Shown piece by piece: positions 57 to 6,736 of a stretch of DNA of 7,129 nt. Source of the stretch: Anaerolineae bacterium (GTDB lineage: Bacteria; Chloroflexota; Anaerolineae; 4572-78; J111); assembly GCA_020433785.1 (NCBI GenBank), contig JAGRCC010000711.1, forward strand, positions 1 through 7,129, read 5' to 3'. The position numbers and the translations under genes were made by a program. Numbering within the stretch: the first letter of the stretch is position 1; each line of letters begins with the position of its first letter. The notes below the pieces were generated by a model. It did no database searches. It was not told where the DNA came from and worked only from the letters and a program-made list of their open reading frames with translations.

Positions 57-980
57 TTAGTTAACAAAGCCAATCAAGCGGTTAGCGTGATGCGGCTGGC
101 GCAACTTAGCTAGCGCCTCCTTCTCGATCTGGCGAATACGTTCGCGGGTCAGACCAAATCGTTCGGCTACATCTTGCAGCGTTAACGGCTGGCCGTCTCG
201 CAGACCATAGCGCAGTTCCACAATTCTACTTTCACGAGCACTCAAGCCGGCCAGAGCGCGGCGAATCTCGGTTTCTAGCAGCGTAGAGTCAACCTGATCT
301 TCCAGATCTTGGGTTAGATCATTTTCGACGAAGTCGGCCAACGTGGCCCCGTCCTCACCAACCGGTTCCTCAAGACTTAGGGTATCCTGTCCGTCTTGAA
401 GCAACTCGTAAATTTGGGCCGGTTCATCGCCGGTCAGTGCGGCAATTTCTTCAAGCTCAGGCGTCCGACCCAAGGTCTGGGTCAGTTGGCCCATCGCTTT
501 TTTGATCTTGCCCAGATGATCGACTTTATGAACAGGCAGTCGAATCACTCTAGTCTGAACGGCGACAGCGCGGCTGACACTTTGTCTGATCCAGTAGCTA
601 GCATAGGTGCTCAACCGTACACCTTTGGTCACGTCGAACTTGTCGATCGCTCTAATCAAGCCCAGCACGCCCTCTTGAGAAAGCTCAGCCAGGCTCAAAC
701 CGTGGCCGGAATATTTGCTGGCAATGCTTATTACCAACCGGCCATTGGATTGAATCAACGTCTTGCGCGCCTGAAGGCCTCGCTCACTTATTTGGCAAAG
801 CTTTTCGCGTTCGGCAAAATCTAAATCTTTATTTTTAGTTAATTGTTTATAGGCGCGCTTGCCGGCTACCATCTCCGCAATTAACCGCTTTTCTTCTTCA
901 GGAGAAACAGGGGCGGTAGCCGCCAAGTTGGCTATACTTAATCTAAACAACGCTTCATCTGGTGCCCATGTGGATGCCAT
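57..980 (-). CDS. RNA polymerase sigma factor, sigma-70 family (primary-like, group 1/2)
   Basis: This 307-residue protein directs RNA polymerase to promoters. A region 1.2-like stretch (residues about 8-40) is followed by a short non-conserved linker. Region 2 (about 70-150) keeps the core-binding and -10-reading motifs: LSQEGVLGLIRAIDKFD at 100-116, STYASYWIRQSVSRA at 124-138 and IRLPVH at 146-151. Region 3 covers about 155-225. Region 4 ends in a helix-turn-helix with LTLQDVAERFGLTRERIRQIE. Region 1.1 is absent, and the protein is shorter than typical RpoD, so it may be a second, RpoD-like sigma rather than the housekeeping one. ECF sigmas are excluded because they lack regions 1.2 and 3. 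The ATG at 980 is supported by GAGGTGAT 6-8 nt upstream. I found no convincing -35/-10 pair in the 115-bp gap before it; a TTGACG lies near 1055 but has no -10 box at proper spacing. The gene may therefore read from upstream or use an alternative sigma. The terminator at 7-35 closes the unit. Confidence 0.95.
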   Translation of the reverse strand: MASTWAPDEALFRLSIANLAATAPVSPEEEKRLIAEMVAGKRAYKQLTKNKDLDFAEREKLCQISERGLQARKTLIQSNGRLVISIASKYSGHGLSLAELSQEGVLGLIRAIDKFDVTKGVRLSTYASYWIRQSVSRAVAVQTRVIRLPVHKVDHLGKIKKAMGQLTQTLGRTPELEEIAALTGDEPAQIYELLQDGQDTLSLEEPVGEDGATLADFVENDLTQDLEDQVDSTLLETEIRRALAGLSARESRIVELRYGLRDGQPLTLQDVAERFGLTRERIRQIEKEALAKLRQPHHANRLIGFVN

Positions 981-1095: not shown

Positions 1096-1803
1096 TCAAT
1101 TTAATGAGTAATCTACAAACGGTAATTTTTGTACCTGTTGATGAGCTTGATATGCTTTTAACATATAAGCCAAAATCTTATTTTCTTTATCCATTACGGT
1201 GACAGCCTTAGCCATTAACGAAATCAACGATGAAGCCGAAAGGATTAGCTGCTTATCCGGCAGTGGACCTTGCATCGCTGTGCCGGCTAAAAAAGCCAGC
1301 GCCGCCGGGTCAGTTGGTAAATTGGCGTTAGATAGATCCTCGCCCGATGCACTGGCCAGATAATTGATGTACTGTTCCACTTGCGGTTTGAGCTTTTGTA
1401 ACAATAATCTAATCACATTCGGATCTTCATTCTCATTCATCGGGTAAGGCTCAACCTGTCCAATCAAGAAATCATCTTTGCTGGCCGTGATATTTTTTAA
1501 TGTAAATCGTTCTTCTCCAACAGTAATGATATTCATCCGGCCCTCTTTGAGATGCTCCACCGCCGTAATTCGAGCCGTTGTTCCTATTTCATACAAGTCA
1601 CCACGCCCCAGGTTCACTACGTTGGGCTCTTGAGCATCTTTAGATTTGGCTAGTACTACCCCAAATATCTGATCTGGGCTGTCCATACACTGCTTGATCA
1701 TCGCCTGGTAACGATTTTCGAAAATGTGTAGCGGCAGCATCATTCCGGGAAACAGTACCACGTTTAAGGGGAAGAGCGATATGGATGAGTTAGAAGTGAG
1801 CAT
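1096..1803 (-). CDS. LON peptidase substrate-binding-domain protein (no protease domain)
   Basis: At 235 residues this is a stand-alone version of the N-terminal domain of Lon protease. The family signature is clear at residues 8-32: ISLFPLNVVLFPGMMLPLHI followed by FENRY. The PUA-like beta barrel continues to about residue 115 (GVVLAK, GTTARI, GRMNIITVGEERF), and a helical bundle follows to the end. There is no AAA+ ATPase and no Ser-Lys protease domain, so it cannot degrade proteins itself. In the family such proteins are thought to bind peptides or partner proteins, but their role is poorly known. It should be cytoplasmic: there is no signal peptide or membrane helix. The ATG at 1803 leaves an N-terminus that fits the family. 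No clear Shine-Dalgarno precedes it, but a TATAAT box lies 30 bp upstream. It sits between the sigma gene and the GntR-B12 gene on the same strand, with gaps of 115 and 88 bp, so a shared operon is possible but not required. Confidence 0.9.
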   Translation of the reverse strand: MLTSNSSISLFPLNVVLFPGMMLPLHIFENRYQAMIKQCMDSPDQIFGVVLAKSKDAQEPNVVNLGRGDLYEIGTTARITAVEHLKEGRMNIITVGEERFTLKNITASKDDFLIGQVEPYPMNENEDPNVIRLLLQKLKPQVEQYINYLASASGEDLSNANLPTDPAALAFLAGTAMQGPLPDKQLILSASSLISLMAKAVTVMDKENKILAYMLKAYQAHQQVQKLPFVDYSLN

Positions 1804-1832: not shown

Positions 1833-1861
1833 ATTATACGCATCCAGTTGTAGTCCCTTTA
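1833..1861 (-). promoter_or_regulatory. Probable promoter of the LON-domain gene
   Basis: A perfect TATAAT (minus strand, 1838 to 1833) lies 30 bp before the ATG at 1803, predicting a leader of about 22 nt. The -35 region is weak (around TAAAGG at 17-bp spacing), so recognition may depend on an activator or on the -10 box. A 6-bp inverted repeat (AATTAA, 4-nt gap, TTAATT; 1804-1819) lies between the start site and the ATG, but in such AT-rich DNA it may be chance. Confidence 0.5.
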
Positions 1862-1891: not shown

Positions 1892-2839
1892 CTATATCAG
1901 GGCTTCCACGTTGGTAATCGCTTGTTCAATTGTATGGCCCAGAAATAGGCCGGGCATCTTAGACGCTAAAGCTGGATTTCGCGTGAACGCCACCCCACCA
2001 AAGGTAAAAATTTGTTTTTTTGACCGTAAATCATGTCGAGGTAGTACAAAGTATTGCTGCCCAAGTTGATACAAATTCTCGACGCCCTGATCGGTTGCGG
2101 CTGAAACGCAAATAACCTGAGGTTTTGCCACTTCAACGGCATGTTGAAAGTCGTTCGCCGTAGTCATCGGACCTAAATAAATAATCGATAAGCCTCGCCG
2201 GCGTAAACTCAGAGCCAATGAAATCAGGCCGATTTCGTGCAAATCTTCCGGCGCACAAGCCAGCAGAGCCATTGGACCTCGTTTGGCCATTGTGGCGGCA
2301 TTCATCATAGCTATCAGTTGTGAACGGATGGTGACGATGACATAATTGTGAGTTAGTAAGTTGATAGAGCCGCTGGCCCATTTCTTCTCTGAAAAATTGA
2401 TCAACTCCGGAAAAAGCCTCACTGCCACCGTTTCTAAAGAATGTTTGGCCAGAATCTCACTAATGGTTTGATCAGCGTCAATACAGTTAAAAGTATTCAA
2501 TGCATTGAGCAGTTTCTGGCCTAAACGAGAGTGGATTAGCCCGTCCTTTTTTATCTGGGCATCGTCTATATTAGGCTGTGTCGCCACCTCTTTCTTAACC
2601 GATTTCGATCGATGACTGACAAAAGTACCCTTGCCAACCCGCGTATAAGCCAGTCCATCAGCAATTAGCCCTTGAAGCGCTCGCCGAGCGGTCATTCGGC
2701 TTAAGTCGTAATGTTGGCAGAGATCACGCTCAGAAGGTAGTTTCTGGTGGGAAACATAAACCCCATGTTCTATCTGGTTTTGCAACAATTCCTTCAACTG
2801 AAGATAAACCGGTCGAGGATGCTGCTTATCCAGATGCAT
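1892..2839 (-). CDS. GntR-type transcriptional regulator fused to a cobalamin (B12)-binding domain
   Basis: A 315-residue fusion. Residues 8-75 are a GntR winged helix-turn-helix: PVYLQLKELLQNQIEHG, then KLPSERDLCQHYDLSRMTAR and a GKGTFV wing. A linker leads to a helical cap-like region (about 100-185) resembling the B12-binding cap of CarH/LitR and methionine synthase. Residues 187-315 form a Rossmann-type cobalamin domain with the three signature elements: D199-x-H201-x-x-G204 (His is the lower cobalt ligand in characterised members), S246 and G281-G282. The expected Wx9EH motif of the cap is altered: W154 is present, but H164-N165 replace Glu-His. By analogy with CarH it may repress genes in the dark with adenosylcobalamin and release DNA in light, or it may simply sense B12 or redox state; this is inference. 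The start at 2839 is chosen over an in-frame ATG at 2911 because AGGAGG lies 4 nt upstream and the 2911 codon falls inside the -35 box. It is divergent from the response regulator at 3193. An ordinary GntR effector domain such as FCD or UTRA is excluded by the motifs. Confidence 0.88.
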   Translation of the reverse strand: MHLDKQHPRPVYLQLKELLQNQIEHGVYVSHQKLPSERDLCQHYDLSRMTARRALQGLIADGLAYTRVGKGTFVSHRSKSVKKEVATQPNIDDAQIKKDGLIHSRLGQKLLNALNTFNCIDADQTISEILAKHSLETVAVRLFPELINFSEKKWASGSINLLTHNYVIVTIRSQLIAMMNAATMAKRGPMALLACAPEDLHEIGLISLALSLRRRGLSIIYLGPMTTANDFQHAVEVAKPQVICVSAATDQGVENLYQLGQQYFVLPRHDLRSKKQIFTFGGVAFTRNPALASKMPGLFLGHTIEQAITNVEALI

Positions 2840-2864
2840 AAGCCCTCCTAACTTATTTAGCTTT

Positions 2865-2882
2865 GTATACCAGTATATACCA
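2865..2882 (-). promoter_or_regulatory. Probable autoregulatory GntR operator at the transcription start
   Basis: On the minus strand TGGTATATACTGGTATAC lies immediately after the -10 box and covers the predicted +1. It contains two palindromes, GTATATAC (2873-2880) and GTATAC (2865-2870). It is also a direct repeat of TGGTATA with a 10-bp period, one helical turn. GTATATAC matches the GT-N-TA-N-AC core known for HutC/GntR-type operators. A repressor bound here would block the gene's own promoter. Binding by this regulator is inferred from position and motif. Confidence 0.6.
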
Positions 2883-2911
2883 ATATTACTCCATTTTTTT
2901 GAATATGTCAA
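2883..2911 (-). promoter_or_regulatory. Promoter of the GntR-B12 regulator gene
   Basis: On the minus strand a perfect -35 TTGACA (2911 to 2906) is separated by exactly 17 bp from TAATAT (2888 to 2883). The expected start site is near 2876, giving a leader of about 36 nt with AGGAGG at 2849-2844. This arrangement shows that the ATG at 2911 cannot be the translation start. Confidence 0.8.
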
Positions 2912-3029
2912 TATGGTTTTTGTGCTAAATTTTTTGTGTTGCGAACTATTTGTGAGCGTCTATATCGTTGTTAAGGTCAGAAACAGGGACTTTTCTATAA
3001 AAATATCGTTCTCTAATGTAAAAATAGTA

Positions 3030-3066
3030 CCATTTGTAAATTAAAGACAAGTTAATTTGCAAATGG
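3030..3066. repeat. Long inverted repeat, 15-bp arms
   Basis: CCATTTGTAAATTAA (3030-3044) pairs with TTAATTTGCAAATGG (3052-3066) across a 7-nt loop. The only flaw is one T/G position, which would be a wobble pair in RNA. It lacks a T-run and lies 60 bp upstream of the response regulator promoter, so it reads better as a protein-binding dyad or part of an untranslated RNA than as a terminator. Confidence 0.75.
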
Positions 3067-3079
3067 AATTAGAACATTT

Positions 3080-3109
3080 GATTGCCCTAACGCATTTATC
3101 AGGGCAATC
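3080..3109. repeat. Inverted repeat, 9-bp arms
   Basis: GATTGCCCT (3080-3088) and AGGGCAATC (3101-3109) are perfect complements around a 12-nt loop. No T-run follows on the plus strand. It sits directly upstream of the response regulator promoter and 13 bp after the first inverted repeat. It could be an operator or a folded structure; the sequence does not decide. Confidence 0.65.
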
Positions 3110-3125
3110 CCTGACATTTGGGTGA

Positions 3126-3154
3126 TTGGCTCAGGCTTGTCATCGTGCTATAAT
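3126..3154 (+). promoter_or_regulatory. Extended -10 promoter of the OmpR-type response regulator
   Basis: TGCTATAAT (3146-3154) is a perfect extended -10 box. A 4/6-match -35 box TTGGCT (3126-3131) stands 17 bp upstream of TATAAT. The predicted start site near 3161 gives a leader of about 32 nt ending in the Shine-Dalgarno GGGGG at 3183-3187. Confidence 0.75.
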
Positions 3155-3192
3155 CTGTGGGTAGAGTGGATAAATCTTTTTAGGGGGAAAAT

Positions 3193-3918
3193 ATGGCCGT
3201 ACCGTCATCACCGGAGATGGAAGTTCCGCGTGTTTTGGTCGTTGATGATGATCAAGAAGTAGCTAAATCTATCGAAGCATCGCTGCGCCGAAATTATCAA
3301 GTATTTGTTGTGTACAGTGGTATTAGTGCTCTGAAGGAAGCCCGGCGACATAACCCCGATATCATTGTGTTGGATGTAGTCATGCCCGGTCTTGACGGGC
3401 TGGAAACCTGCCGCGAACTGAGAATTGATCCCGCTTTGGCCGGCATTCCCATTCTTTTTTTAACTGCTCTGGGGCGTCCTGAAGATCGCGTAGCCGGGCT
3501 TCGAGCCGGGGCTGATGATTATTTAACCAAACCCTTTAACTTGGAAGAGTTACAGCTTCGAATCAAGGCCATTCTCCGTCGCGTTCAGCGAAAACCATCC
3601 ATTCCCACCCAATCCCTAATCAAAGTTCGTGATCTTGAGCTTGATCGGCACAGTTACGGTGTAACCACCTCGAAGAAAAAAGCAGTTTTGACCCCGGTTG
3701 AGTTCGATCTACTGTACCATTTGATGACACATCCGAACGAAGTATTTACCAGCGATCGATTACTGAAAGAAGTTTGGGATTATCCGTCAGAGACAGGTAG
3801 CCCAGATTTGGTTCGGATGCACATTAAGAACCTGAGGCGCAAAGTTGAGGAGGATCCGAGCAAACCGCAATTCATTCTTACAATTCCCCGGCGAGGCTAT
3901 ACCATTGCTTCCGGTTGA
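3193..3918 (+). CDS. Response regulator, OmpR/PhoB family (receiver plus winged helix)
   Basis: A 241-residue two-component transcription factor of standard family length. The receiver domain (about 12-128) has every key residue: acidic pocket D18-D19, phospho-acceptor D61 in VLDVVMPGLDG, switch T91, Y110, and K113 in the TKPF motif. The OmpR/PhoB winged-helix effector fills about 140-240, with LTPVEFDLLYHLMTHPNEVF and a C-terminal MHIKNLRRKVEEDP followed by the wing PRRGYTI. It should bind direct-repeat DNA as a dimer after phosphorylation. It is a complete single-gene unit: own promoter at 3126-3154, GGGGG ribosome site 5 nt before the ATG, and terminator 16 bp after the stop. No kinase is encoded beside it in the same unit. 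The kinase at 4505 has its own receiver partner, so this regulator looks like an orphan, although cross-talk with that kinase is possible. Confidence 0.95.
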   Translation: MAVPSSPEMEVPRVLVVDDDQEVAKSIEASLRRNYQVFVVYSGISALKEARRHNPDIIVLDVVMPGLDGLETCRELRIDPALAGIPILFLTALGRPEDRVAGLRAGADDYLTKPFNLEELQLRIKAILRRVQRKPSIPTQSLIKVRDLELDRHSYGVTTSKKKAVLTPVEFDLLYHLMTHPNEVFTSDRLLKEVWDYPSETGSPDLVRMHIKNLRRKVEEDPSKPQFILTIPRRGYTIASG

Positions 3919-3933
3919 AGAAACAAAACACAA

Positions 3934-3964
3934 AAAAATCCCACCTATCAGAGGTGGGATTTTT
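3934..3964 (+). terminator. Bidirectional intrinsic terminator between convergent genes
   Basis: AAAAATCCCACCT (3934-3946) and its exact complement (3952-3964) form a 13-bp stem with a 5-nt loop. The T-run ends the plus-strand response regulator transcript, and the A-run before the stem gives TTTTTTT on the minus strand for the small convergent gene ending at 3984. It is 16 and 19 bp from the two stop codons. Confidence 0.9.
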
Positions 3965-3983
3965 CATTAATTAAGATATAAGT

Positions 3984-4223
3984 TCAACCGGCTAAATCGA
4001 TGATTTTTTCCTGCTCCGTTAAAGGTTCTGACAATTCAAGCTTACGAATTACACGACTTGGTCGCGTGGCTAAATTAGCTAAAGTTTGTTCAATACGACA
4101 AAGTTCTTCGTGCATTGGGTCAAACCTCGGTGAAGAAATGGCATTTTGCCGGCTATCGACCAAACGCTCAACCAGAGCGGTTAGTTTATCAAAGATAGCT
4201 CGACCCGAAGTTGTTACCTCCAT
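3984..4223 (-). CDS. Small hypothetical protein (79 aa), family not recognised
   Basis: I do not recognise this protein. It is acidic to neutral, has no signal peptide or membrane helix, and is predicted to be mostly helical. One helix lies at about 8-24 (IFDKLTALVERLVDSRQ) and another at about 36-53 (MHEELCRIEQTLANLATR), with spaced hydrophobics that suggest a short coiled coil or a helix-hairpin pairing domain. It has the full set of gene signals: a promoter candidate at 4291-4319, AAGGAG at 4240-4235 (11 nt before the ATG, slightly long), and a terminator just past the stop shared with the convergent response regulator. These favour it over the 120-residue reading frame on the opposite strand across the same DNA. 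It might be a small regulatory or adaptor protein, but nothing in the sequence fixes a function. Confidence 0.65.
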   Translation of the reverse strand: MEVTTSGRAIFDKLTALVERLVDSRQNAISSPRFDPMHEELCRIEQTLANLATRPSRVIRKLELSEPLTEQEKIIDLAG

Positions 4224-4290
4224 AGATATTAGCGCTCCTTCCTGGCATCTAAAAGATCTTGAAAATAACTGTTCCCGAACTATTCACTTA

Positions 4291-4319
4291 GTTTTACACC
4301 ATATTAATAATGCTGGCAA
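4291..4319 (-). promoter_or_regulatory. Probable promoter of the 79-aa gene
   Basis: On the minus strand TTGCCA (4319 to 4314, 5 of 6 consensus bases) is followed after 17 bp by TAAAAC (4296 to 4291, 4 of 6). The predicted start near 4284 gives a leader of about 60 nt. The 26-bp near-palindrome at 4328-4353 lies just upstream of this -35 box. Confidence 0.5.
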
Positions 4320-4327
4320 GTTTTCAT

Positions 4328-4353
4328 GGGTACAATGTTTTAACATTTTACCC
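4328..4353. repeat. 26-bp near-palindrome, probable protein-binding site
   Basis: GGGTACAATGTT (4328-4339) mirrors AACATTTTACCC (4342-4353), with mismatches only at the central TT and at one internal pair (4333/4348), so 11 of 13 pairs match. The spacer is too short for a stable RNA hairpin, which favours a dimeric DNA-binding protein. It is 9 bp upstream of the -35 box of the 79-aa gene and about 115 bp upstream of the kinase promoter. Confidence 0.6.
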
Positions 4354-4467
4354 GCTTTCTAATAAGCTTACCTAGCGCTTATCAGGTATTTAGCGATTAA
4401 GAATCTGGCAAAATTGTTAGAAAATGAGTGACAGCCGCTTGGGATCGATTAAATAACCGTTGCTTTT

Positions 4468-4497
4468 TGAACAGCCAATTCTTAAACGTGGTATAAT
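4468..4497 (+). promoter_or_regulatory. Promoter of the histidine kinase operon, giving a leaderless mRNA
   Basis: TGGTATAAT (4489-4497) is a perfect extended -10 box. A weak -35 (TGAACA, 4468-4473) stands 18 bp upstream. Only 7 nt separate the TATAAT from the ATG at 4505, so transcription should begin at or next to the A of the start codon. No Shine-Dalgarno precedes the ATG, in agreement. Confidence 0.7.
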
Positions 4498-4504
4498 TAA
4501 CGGT

Positions 4505-6196
4505 ATGAACGCTTCGACCCACTCCCCCCACGTCTTATTAATTGCCCCCTCAGGCGACGATACTTTACGCCGGGAGTTACAAACATCTTCTAATTTCAAG
4601 ATAACCGAACTGGCATCGGGCGAGCGGCTGGTAGATGTGGTTCGACAATTCCGATTAGACCTAATTGTTCTAGATAATTCCACCAGCGACCCACCCCTCG
4701 AAACCGTGCTTTCAATCTTGGCGGCCGAAAAGTTGACGACACCGCTAGTGGTCATCGGTGCTTATGACGACTCCGTTGTGACTAACCCCCGGCCGGCTAT
4801 TACCGGCTGGATCGGTCGCCCTTTTTCAGCTGCGGATGTGGCCCGGCTGGTTCAAACCGCACTGGCGCCGTCTATCCCTGGTAGCGAGCAACCACCGGCT
4901 CAAACGGCCGATCTGGTTGAGACTAATCGTCGATTAGCCAACCGGGTCAATGAACTGCAATCGTTGTTTGAAATCAGCCGGTTGGTGTCGAGTACGTTAC
5001 AAGTGGCCGAAATTCCGCGCCTGTTGTTGCAGCGGGCGGCGGAAATTGTACAAGCCGAATGCGGCTCGCTGGCTTTGATCGACAAGCAGCGAAGCGGGGT
5101 GGTTTTCCAACTGGCCTATGATGCGGCAGGGATTGAGGTCAAAGGGCTGCGGAATTTTGTCATGCCGCTGGGCCAGGGCATTGCCGGCTTGGTGGCCGAA
5201 ACCGGACAGCCGGTGATCGCCAATGATGTCAAACAGCACCCGGCCTGGTCTCCCCTGTCTGACCAGATGACCGGTTTTACGACCAAACAGTTGGTGGCCG
5301 TACCCCTCATCGCTGAAGGGGAGATCATTGGTGTGGTAGAACTGCTCAATAAAAAGGAAGGCGTCTTTGATCAGGATGATGTCGATCTGATGGGGTTAGT
5401 GGCTTCTTCCGTCGCCAGCGCGATCCAGAATGCCCGGCAGTATGAATCGTTAAAGCAGGCCAACCAGGCGCTGCACCAGGCCCACGAACAACGCGTGGCC
5501 GCGGAGCGTTGGGCGGTGTTGGGCAAGGCCGCCGCCAATTTGGCCCACCGGATCAATAATACCACAACGCTCATTCCCATTGCCGCCCAGCATACGCTGG
5601 AATTGCTAGCCCCAGTTGATCTGCCGCCTGAACTGCGCGCCGATATCGAGGGTAACCTGGATCGGATTCGGCGGAACTCTCTATACACGGTTGAATTGGC
5701 CACGGTGCTGCTGCGTCGTTTCAGGAAAGATCCCACTGATGCGCATGATGTGAATGAGCTAATTAACAAAGCGCTGACTTTGGTCGAGATTCCTGCCAAT
5801 ATCCGGCTGGTCACCCATTTAGACCCTGATTTGCCGCCGGTCGATACCAGCGATTTGCTGACCGACGTTTTTGTGGAGTTGATCGCCAATGCCATCAAAG
5901 CCTTATCGCCTGATGGGGGCTTGCTGCGCATCGCTACCTTCAGAGTGGGCCAGAATCGGGTGTCGATTCAGATTACCGATAATGGGCCGGGCATTACGGC
6001 CGAAGATGCGGGCAAAATTTTCGATATGTTTTTTACCACCACCCCAACCGGCCTTGGGTTTGGGCTGTGGTGGGTCAAAACCTTTTTAGAGCAGCAGCGC
6101 GGCGAGATCACGGTGGACAGTGTACCGAACGAACATACCACCTTTACGGTGACGCTGCCGCGCAATTTGCCGTCGTTGCATTCTTTTCAGAAATAG
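4505..6196 (+). CDS. Soluble sensor histidine kinase: pseudo-receiver, GAF, HATPase
   Basis: 563 residues, no membrane helices, so a cytoplasmic kinase. Residues 8-121 form a receiver-like domain that keeps D57 (LIVLDNS). Its acidic pocket is replaced by A14-P15, G85 stands where the switch Thr is expected, and R105 replaces the invariant Lys (GRPF), so it is probably not phosphorylated normally. A coiled linker (135-165) leads to a GAF domain (about 165-325) that may bind a small ligand. The phospho-acceptor helix has H348 in AHRINN, with Arg where kinases usually have Glu or Asp. The ATPase domain has the N box (E458, N462), D492-NGPGI (G1) and GLGFGLWW (516-523, G2), and looks catalytically intact. 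The start is the ATG at 4505: an in-frame TTG at 4460 lies upstream of the promoter. It is the first gene of an operon with the receiver protein at 6239, its likely partner. The input signal is unknown. Confidence 0.92.
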   Translation: MNASTHSPHVLLIAPSGDDTLRRELQTSSNFKITELASGERLVDVVRQFRLDLIVLDNSTSDPPLETVLSILAAEKLTTPLVVIGAYDDSVVTNPRPAITGWIGRPFSAADVARLVQTALAPSIPGSEQPPAQTADLVETNRRLANRVNELQSLFEISRLVSSTLQVAEIPRLLLQRAAEIVQAECGSLALIDKQRSGVVFQLAYDAAGIEVKGLRNFVMPLGQGIAGLVAETGQPVIANDVKQHPAWSPLSDQMTGFTTKQLVAVPLIAEGEIIGVVELLNKKEGVFDQDDVDLMGLVASSVASAIQNARQYESLKQANQALHQAHEQRVAAERWAVLGKAAANLAHRINNTTTLIPIAAQHTLELLAPVDLPPELRADIEGNLDRIRRNSLYTVELATVLLRRFRKDPTDAHDVNELINKALTLVEIPANIRLVTHLDPDLPPVDTSDLLTDVFVELIANAIKALSPDGGLLRIATFRVGQNRVSIQITDNGPGITAEDAGKIFDMFFTTTPTGLGFGLWWVKTFLEQQRGEITVDSVPNEHTTFTVTLPRNLPSLHSFQK

Positions 6197-6238
6197 AGTA
6201 ATATGGCTGACTTAAAGGTTGCAAGAGGAGAGTAGACG

Positions 6239-6736
6239 GTGCGTAAACGTATTTTAGTTGTTGACGACGTCCCCGATTGGCGAGCCACCTTAGAAAATAT
6301 TCTTAAAACCGAGTGTGAGGTGATCACCGTCGATGGGTATCACTCGGCTATGGAAGTGGTCAGGAACCAGGAGGTTGATCTGGTCATCGTCGATTTGCGC
6401 CTCAGTCCTACGGATGAGAACAACCGTGACGGCATGCGGTTGCTGGAAAAGTTGACGGATTATCGGATCAACGCCATCGTCCTGACCGGTTACCCGGAAC
6501 AGACCCTGCAAGAAGAAGCGGAAAATAAATATCACGCTTTCGAATTTATCGATAAGGATGCGCTGGCCAGCAACTTTCAACGCATTCGCGAAATTGTGCG
6601 CGAAGCCTTTGGCCTGTTGGAAAACGTGGAAAAGGCGAAACGCCAGGCCATTCGTGCCGCCAAGGCTTTACAAAGTGTGGCCTTCACCGATGAACTGTCT
6701 AGCTGGCCGCTTCGAAAATTTCGCAAAGATAAATGA
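6239..6736 (+). CDS. Single-domain response regulator with basic C-terminal tail
   Basis: 165 residues starting at GTG, chosen because AGAGGAG lies 8 nt upstream and the product begins directly with the receiver beta strand (KRILVVDD). Key residues are present: acidic pocket D9-D10, phospho-acceptor D52 in VIVDLRL, switch T83 and K106. The usual Lys-Pro is Lys-Asp here (FIDKDAL), and the loop after D52 is lengthened (SPTDENNRDG). The receiver ends near residue 120. The remaining 45 residues hold a helix (LLENVEKAKRQAIRAAKALQ) and a basic end (LRKFRKDK), with no recognisable DNA-binding or enzyme domain. It probably signals by protein contact, either to the membrane protein that follows or as a phosphate relay. 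It is 42 bp after the kinase with no promoter or terminator between, and it overlaps the next gene by 4 bp, so one mRNA is likely. Confidence 0.9.
   Translation: MRKRILVVDDVPDWRATLENILKTECEVITVDGYHSAMEVVRNQEVDLVIVDLRLSPTDENNRDGMRLLEKLTDYRINAIVLTGYPEQTLQEEAENKYHAFEFIDKDALASNFQRIREIVREAFGLLENVEKAKRQAIRAAKALQSVAFTDELSSWPLRKFRKDK

Follow-up and report, generated by a model that had tools for sequence, protein, structure and literature searches.

A GntR winged helix fused to a CarH-like cobalamin domain: a putative B12-responsive autorepressor heading a sigma-factor operon in Anaerolineae

A regulator in which a NagR/YvoA-like GntR winged helix is fused to a CarH-like helical bundle and Rossmann cobalamin domain is encoded in the window, i.e. 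the whole stretch of 7,129 nucleotides from an Anaerolineae bacterium that was analysed here (contig JAGRCC010000711.1 of assembly GCA_020433785.1; Table 1). The reading that best accounts for it, to which a probability of about 0.5 is given, is that of a cobalamin-loaded autorepressor of GntR-CarH type which would switch a sigma-factor operon. The features that can be seen directly in the sequence are the two domains, the lower-ligand histidine together with the cap tryptophan, the replaced adenosyl contacts, the promoter-operator and the order of the genes.

Table 1. Positions of the regulator, its domains, its predicted control region and the adjoining genes in the window.
Feature	Position	Strand	Basis or remark
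GntR-B12 regulator, 315 aa	1892..2839	minus	ORF, Pfam domains, homologues
Ribosome-binding site AGGAGG	2844..2849	minus	sequence
GntR winged helix, residues 8-75	2615..2818	minus	R38, R48, G69 = counterparts of NagR base contacts, 120/120
Helical-bundle cap, residues 105-181	2297..2527	minus	carries E151, W154, H164, N165
Rossmann B12-binding domain, residues 188-315	1895..2278	minus	D199-x-H201-x-x-G204, S246, G281-G282
-35 element TTGACA	2906..2911	minus	conserved in 8/8 loci
-10 element TAATAT, 17 bp from -35	2883..2888	minus	
Predicted operator TGGTATATACTGGTATA	2866..2882	minus	conserved in 8/8 loci
Stand-alone LON substrate-binding-domain protein, second operon gene	1096..1803	minus	PF02190, E 1.9e-36
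RpoD-like sigma factor, 307 aa, third operon gene	57..980	minus	Sigma70 r2, r3, r4
OmpR-type response regulator, divergent neighbour	3193..3918	plus	

The ORF of the regulator runs on the minus strand (2839..1892) from an ATG at 2839 that is preceded by AGGAGG. A TTG start further upstream, taken in the mechanical ORF list, gives a version of 339 aa; M1, encoded by the ATG, belongs to the family columns conserved at 90% or more. The intact GntR winged helix that an earlier note on this DNA had read in the sequence was recovered by Pfam (PF00392, residues 12-74, E 1.3e-16), and is 45% identical to that of NagR/YvoA over 75 residues. A match of residues 100-315 to B12-binding profiles, on which the same note had staked its proposal, was obtained with PF02310 (residues 191-291, E 1.1e-10), both domains scoring above the Pfam cut-offs, and D199-L-H201-E-I-G204, S246 and G281-G282 stand at the positions that had been assigned to them. 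The cap-like helical region is borne out as a predicted helical bundle, with helices lying within residues 105-181, and the four-helix bundle plus Rossmann fold of CarH/LitR class I is present in the regulator. The proposed search with the cap model B12-binding_2 (PF02607) gave no match in the Pfam scan of the window regulator; this model matches 33 of the 120 GntR-family proteins versus all 27 MerR-type relatives. With the NCBIfam CarH model, residues 105-256 were matched at E 6.5e-14 and 51.9 bits, below the cut-off of 400, so that the regulator is related to CarH but is not CarH by that model. The VIA-align list, being a second look at the matches of Foldseek, speaks only to the families contained in it.

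A database search returned 208 homologues of the regulator at E ≤ 1e-5, the best 120 of which were examined; the alignment comprises the window protein and 119 homologues, the window's own longer version (P0002) being left out. Since the GntR and B12-binding domains are both present in all 120 aligned proteins, their pairing is more than chance. At E ≤ 0.01 the 120 members together match 15 families, of which UTRA is not one, and the MerR model is absent from every one of them (Pfam table, E ≤ 0.01). The automatic labels given to members in the databases are GntR or 'YhcF / MtbC1'. The MerR comparison set consisted of 30 ORFs matching the profile, drawn from the best-scoring loci of the same class and not a random sample; after L101 (GntR-type) and two ORFs of L178 (copies of those in L102) had been dropped, 27 were left, the MerR identity of which was confirmed in 27/27 by Pfam and RxWERRY. 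In an unrooted tree of 25 of the 120 family rows, L101 and the 27 MerR rows, the GntR and MerR sets are split by a 100/100 branch. Full-length members were found in 8 of 396 sampled genomes of the class of G003 (best five candidates per genome scored) and in 8 of 25 genomes of its order (all candidates scored), and G003 alone has a member among 400 genomes sampled from its phylum (up to five candidates scored in each). The seven named loci come from assemblies of Anaerolineae or Chloroflexi.

According to the earlier note, the sensor of CarH had been moved as such to a different DNA-binding scaffold. The CarH-like domain on a GntR protein stands, but an identity of the two sensors is not supported. 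The lower-ligand motif of CarH is given as D/ExHx2G/P-x41-SxT/V-x22-27-GG (PMC9304148). The window protein reads D199-x-H201-x2-G204-x41-S246, with SxA in place of SxT/V and 32 residues to GG instead of 22-27. In the alignment, which is also what places H201 at the cobalt-ligating histidine of CarH, D199 is kept in 120, H201 in 113, S246 in 107 and G282 in 119 of the 120 proteins, and the cap tryptophan W154 in 109. Trp131 is described as stacking on the adenosyl group and Glu141 as hydrogen-bonding it (PMC10442372), while Glu-His also bridges the dimer in a photocobilin (PMC10979010); the B12 motif and Wx9EH together are stated to define CarH homologues (PMC8156234), and GxxW, EH, GxxH and GxxxP have been proposed as a light-response signature (PMC11796333). 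The EH of Wx9EH is found in 0/120 members of the GntR family versus 27/27 MerR relatives, its position being occupied by HN (H164, N165) in the window and by QN, HN, QH and others across the family. Likewise, GxxW occurs in 0/120 versus 27/27, and position 151, the glycine of this motif, is glutamate in 119/120 and glycine in all 27 MerR relatives. GxxH was seen in 53/120 versus 14/27 and GxxxP in 1/120 versus 15/27; none of the 120 GntR proteins has all four elements of the published signature, which is complete in 4 of the 27 MerR relatives. As the latter also vary at GxxH and GxxxP, discrimination is limited to GxxW and EH. The R176-D201 dimer salt bridge of TtCarH is not conserved in the GntR family and is uninformative, since it is mostly missing in the MerR relatives as well. 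This pattern of conservation indicates that the regulator is a relative of CarH in which the cobalt-side ligand is mostly kept and the adenosyl-side contacts are replaced. With the adenosyl cap altered in this way, the signal is more likely the chemical state or supply of the corrinoid than AdoCbl photolysis of the CarH type, and the corrinoid sensed might carry a small upper ligand or none.

An AdoCbl light sensor on the GntR scaffold, in which a dark oligomer would repress until light cleaves the Co-C bond and frees the DNA, with E151 and H/Q164 standing in for Glu141-His142, is an unlikely alternative in view of the motif counts. The fold and the Trp/His pair that it needs are retained, and E151 is a possible replacement; moreover, adenosyltransferases of the PduO type (6/8), the CobA type (5/8) or either (7/8) and photolyase PF03441 (4/8) are found in the eight host genomes, among which gaps in the MAGs weaken the absences. 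However, the elements EH, GxxW and GxxxP, present in none, none and one of the 120 proteins, are all part of the published light signature (PMC11796333), absolute conservation of Wx9EH is stated for the CarH homologues studied so far (PMC8156234), and the six window proteins that were scanned include no carotenoid or photolyase enzyme. The incomplete Wx9EH, the missing glycine of GxxW and the proline of GxxxP in a single member thus speak against a light-sensing AdoCbl role.

Lower odds still are given to an AerR-like sensor of light or redox state that would take hydroxo- or methylcobalamin beneath a cap formed by W154 and L161; it is contained in the preferred reading as a particular case, so that the odds of the two overlap. 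In AerR, Trp94 and Phe101 are reported to lie over the upper ligand, and in MetH a phenylalanine replaces that tryptophan (PMC9144470). L161, seven residues past W154, is present in 107/120 GntR proteins, but it discriminates weakly, since 26 of the 27 MerR relatives have I or V there.

The least probable alternative is a repressor that, like CarA, would not depend on B12; its cobalamin fold would only serve for oligomerisation, and its signal would be a partner protein. CarA, as described, has the B12 motif without the tryptophan of Wx9EH and acts free of B12 (PMC9304148, PMC8156234), Wx9EH is broken in the GntR family too, and 7/120 members in one group have neither the histidine nor the tryptophan, with four more lacking tryptophan alone, but both residues are otherwise retained in proteins about 50% identical to that of the window, and the seven His-less rows, which count as one event, are without exception Trp-less, as expected if the two act together. 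These seven rows (P0100, P0105, P0106, P0109, P0112, P0114 and P0120) combine H201D with W154C and T246 and have no G281, and they fall in one tree group (support 100/100), which points to a single event that partly mirrors the difference between CarA and CarH. This group is perhaps a GntR counterpart of the B12-independent CarA. Tryptophan is lost and histidine kept in P0058, P0066, P0069 and P0111, three of which also have G204W, so that the two residues are not always coupled.

Binding to GntR-type sites had been expected of the regulator, and a predicted site that matches this expectation lies at its own promoter. The NagR equivalents of R38, R48 and G69, residues invariant in the family (120/120), are described as reading GG half-sites six nucleotides apart (PMC4333415). 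In the window, TGGTATATACTGGTATACAA (operator 2866-2882) follows directly downstream of TTGACA-N17-TAATAT, and a NagR-type operator TGGTATAYACTGGTATA behind a TTGACA-N17-TANNNT promoter was found in all eight loci with upstream DNA. The window operator is laid out as a NagR-type site (GG-N6-CT) and a second GG half-site 10 bp on. By sequence match, the first site is a dre-like GG-N6-CT with half-sites 6 nt apart at 8/8 promoters, with the variant TGGTCTATACTG in L006, and of the second site L005, L006 and L007 have the whole and the other five a half. The operator begins 0-9 bp past the -10 element in seven loci, whereas in the eighth the two share 1 bp; promoter and operator of L007 stand about 200 bp before the gene, and the contig of G004 starts inside what looks like the end of the operator. 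The operator pattern gave one match at up to three mismatches versus a mean of 0.01 expected from shuffles, and none of 2000 shuffles of window positions 2839-3193 gave the tandem core. The promoter scan by itself was not above chance (6 found versus 6.3 expected), so the promoter claim rests on conservation across loci.

A search of eight genomes at one mismatch or fewer returned eight copies of the operator, seven of them at the regulator's own promoter. The only other one-mismatch copy (G005, contig C193; L132 1501-1517) sits between genes that appear phage-like by eye. At two mismatches seven more places were found versus four matches of the reversed control in the same genomes, and inspection by eye of the ORFs around the eight non-promoter places (these seven and the G005 copy) showed no gene common to them. 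Exact TGGTATAYACCA was found in 6 of 11 genomes at seven distinct sites, three of which are the known operator and another three of which lie within ORFs at least 80 aa long, with seven matches of the reversed control. On these comparisons a regulon beyond the own promoter was rejected, and no further target is put forward.

In 9/9 loci (the window, L001-L007 and G218) the LON gene and the RpoD-like sigma gene come after the regulator in the same orientation, the sigma gene being third throughout, although truncated in some where the contig stops. It is split in L007 (2881-3821; G007), where it extends over two frames owing to either a real frameshift or an assembly error. The spacing between regulator and LON gene varies between an overlap of 8 bp (L003) and a gap of 265 bp (L005), and the three genes would form one transcript. 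The operon's sigma factor is additional to the others of the genome: in eight genomes it shares 80-84% identity with that of the window, versus at most 45% for the other sigma factors. In G207, G308 and G282 the response regulator, LON and sigma genes are found without the GntR-B12 gene. G207, whose LON and sigma proteins are 77% and 90% identical to those of the window, keeps TTGACA and a half operator before LON (L172 5605-6127), and is read as a case of regulator loss; neither element was seen in the gap before LON in G308 and G282, and a gain in the others is also possible. A sequence like an extended -10 element, TGCGTATAAT, lies between regulator and LON in the window (1833-1842, minus strand) and is nearly the same in G207; it possibly serves as a second promoter for the LON-sigma pair. 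As this pair occurs without the regulator in three genomes, perhaps with a promoter of its own, the control exerted on sigma may be partial.

The preferred reading, a cobalamin-loaded autorepressor, would work as follows. The regulator would oligomerise through its cobalamin domain, and the oligomer, sitting on the operator just downstream of its own -10 element, would block RNA polymerase. The regulator would be released, and its operon turned on, once the bound cobalamin changed in upper ligand, redox state or occupancy, and the sigma factor could then carry the signal onward to other genes. It is probable that the regulator binds cobalamin, and repression of its own operon is predicted with the same confidence. 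Roughly even odds are given to the state of the cobalamin as the signal, whereas AdoCbl photolysis is thought improbable and the remainder falls to the CarA-like alternative. The rewired upper pocket (ExxW...[Q/H/Y][N/H]) might be what makes the regulator responsive to the chemistry or supply of corrinoid. The more specific proposal, a non-photoreceptor B12 reader on a GntR scaffold gating an alternative sigma factor via a single self-directed operator, is tentative, at somewhat less than even odds.

Each of the known systems resembles the regulator in part. NagR/YvoA (GntR/HutC) shares the winged helix with R38, R48 and G69 and a dre-like operator, predicted here, but the UTRA effector domain, which defines HutC regulators, has no match here and a cobalamin-type sensor takes its place. 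CarH/LitR (Thermus 5C8D) likewise consists of an N-terminal winged helix, a helical bundle and a Rossmann cobalamin domain with D/ExHxxG and the cap tryptophan; however, its DNA-binding domain is MerR rather than GntR, its EH and GxxW are replaced here, and its operator is described as 11-bp TnnACA direct repeats (PMC9304148), in contrast to the predicted GG-N6-CT type. CarA of Myxococcus is a CarH-like repressor with a broken Wx9EH too, but on a MerR scaffold and with the tryptophan lost and EH kept, the reverse of the GntR-B12 regulator. The AerR and MetH modules share the aromatic residue over the upper ligand and a His-on Rossmann domain, but AerR acts through CrtJ as a co-regulator (PMC9144470), and MetH is an enzyme. 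In LitR-LitS of Streptomyces coelicolor a B12 regulator is likewise reported to control a sigma factor gene (PMC12705666), but LitR belongs to the MerR type and LitS is an ECF sigma, whereas here a GntR-type regulator, an RpoD-like sigma and a LON-domain gene between them are found.

The earlier note named no characterized example of this architecture, and literature searches gave none either: none of the papers listed from the open literature was, by its listing, concerned with GntR plus B12-binding. The B12-sensing regulators dealt with in the cited passages are MerR proteins, AerR-type partners or photocobilins. In PMC11796333 the output domains include 'HTH' and not GntR, a name absent from its main text, and a survey mining by its light signature would miss the GntR-B12 family. 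New here are the operon headed by the regulator, with LON and sigma genes, and the conserved predicted promoter-operator. With its predictable operator, a GntR-based B12 family would add a second scaffold for DNA binding that could be put to use in biosensors, whether optogenetic or for B12. Because tryptophan and histidine are mostly kept, with the glycine and Glu-His replaced in every member examined, the family may be considered a natural experiment on the pocket residues that make cobalamin a light switch. The link with a sigma factor, being conserved, points to a response of wider extent in this poorly known group of Anaerolineae.

Cobalamin riboswitches are present in 6/8 host genomes; at the locus itself there was no Rfam match to one at gathering scores in eight sources. 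MerR-B12 proteins with Wx9EH coexist with the GntR-B12 regulator in at least four of the eight genomes (G002, G003, G005 and G007), and the MerR-B12 gene of G002 adjoins a photolyase ORF (PF00875) that runs off the end of the retrieved sequence. MerR-B12 regulators were also observed upstream of a distant LON gene in L178 (6079-8220, a tandem pair), L175 and L176. A shared locus with a swapped regulator was rejected for these three, in which LON is only 36-38% identical, an ORF lies between and the comparison found no such sigma gene; in a fourth candidate, L177, neither a LON nor a sigma gene was among the picked ORFs.

The divergent response regulator is present in five of the nine loci (the window, L001, L002, L003 and L005), as well as in the three genomes without the GntR-B12 gene; it was not seen in L006 or in L007 (0.6 kb upstream), and L004 and L188 barely reach upstream of the regulator. 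In the window (3193-6736, plus strand) it forms a two-component cluster with a GAF histidine kinase and a receiver protein, relatives of all three being found in L001, L005 and L173 and of the kinase and response regulator in L174.
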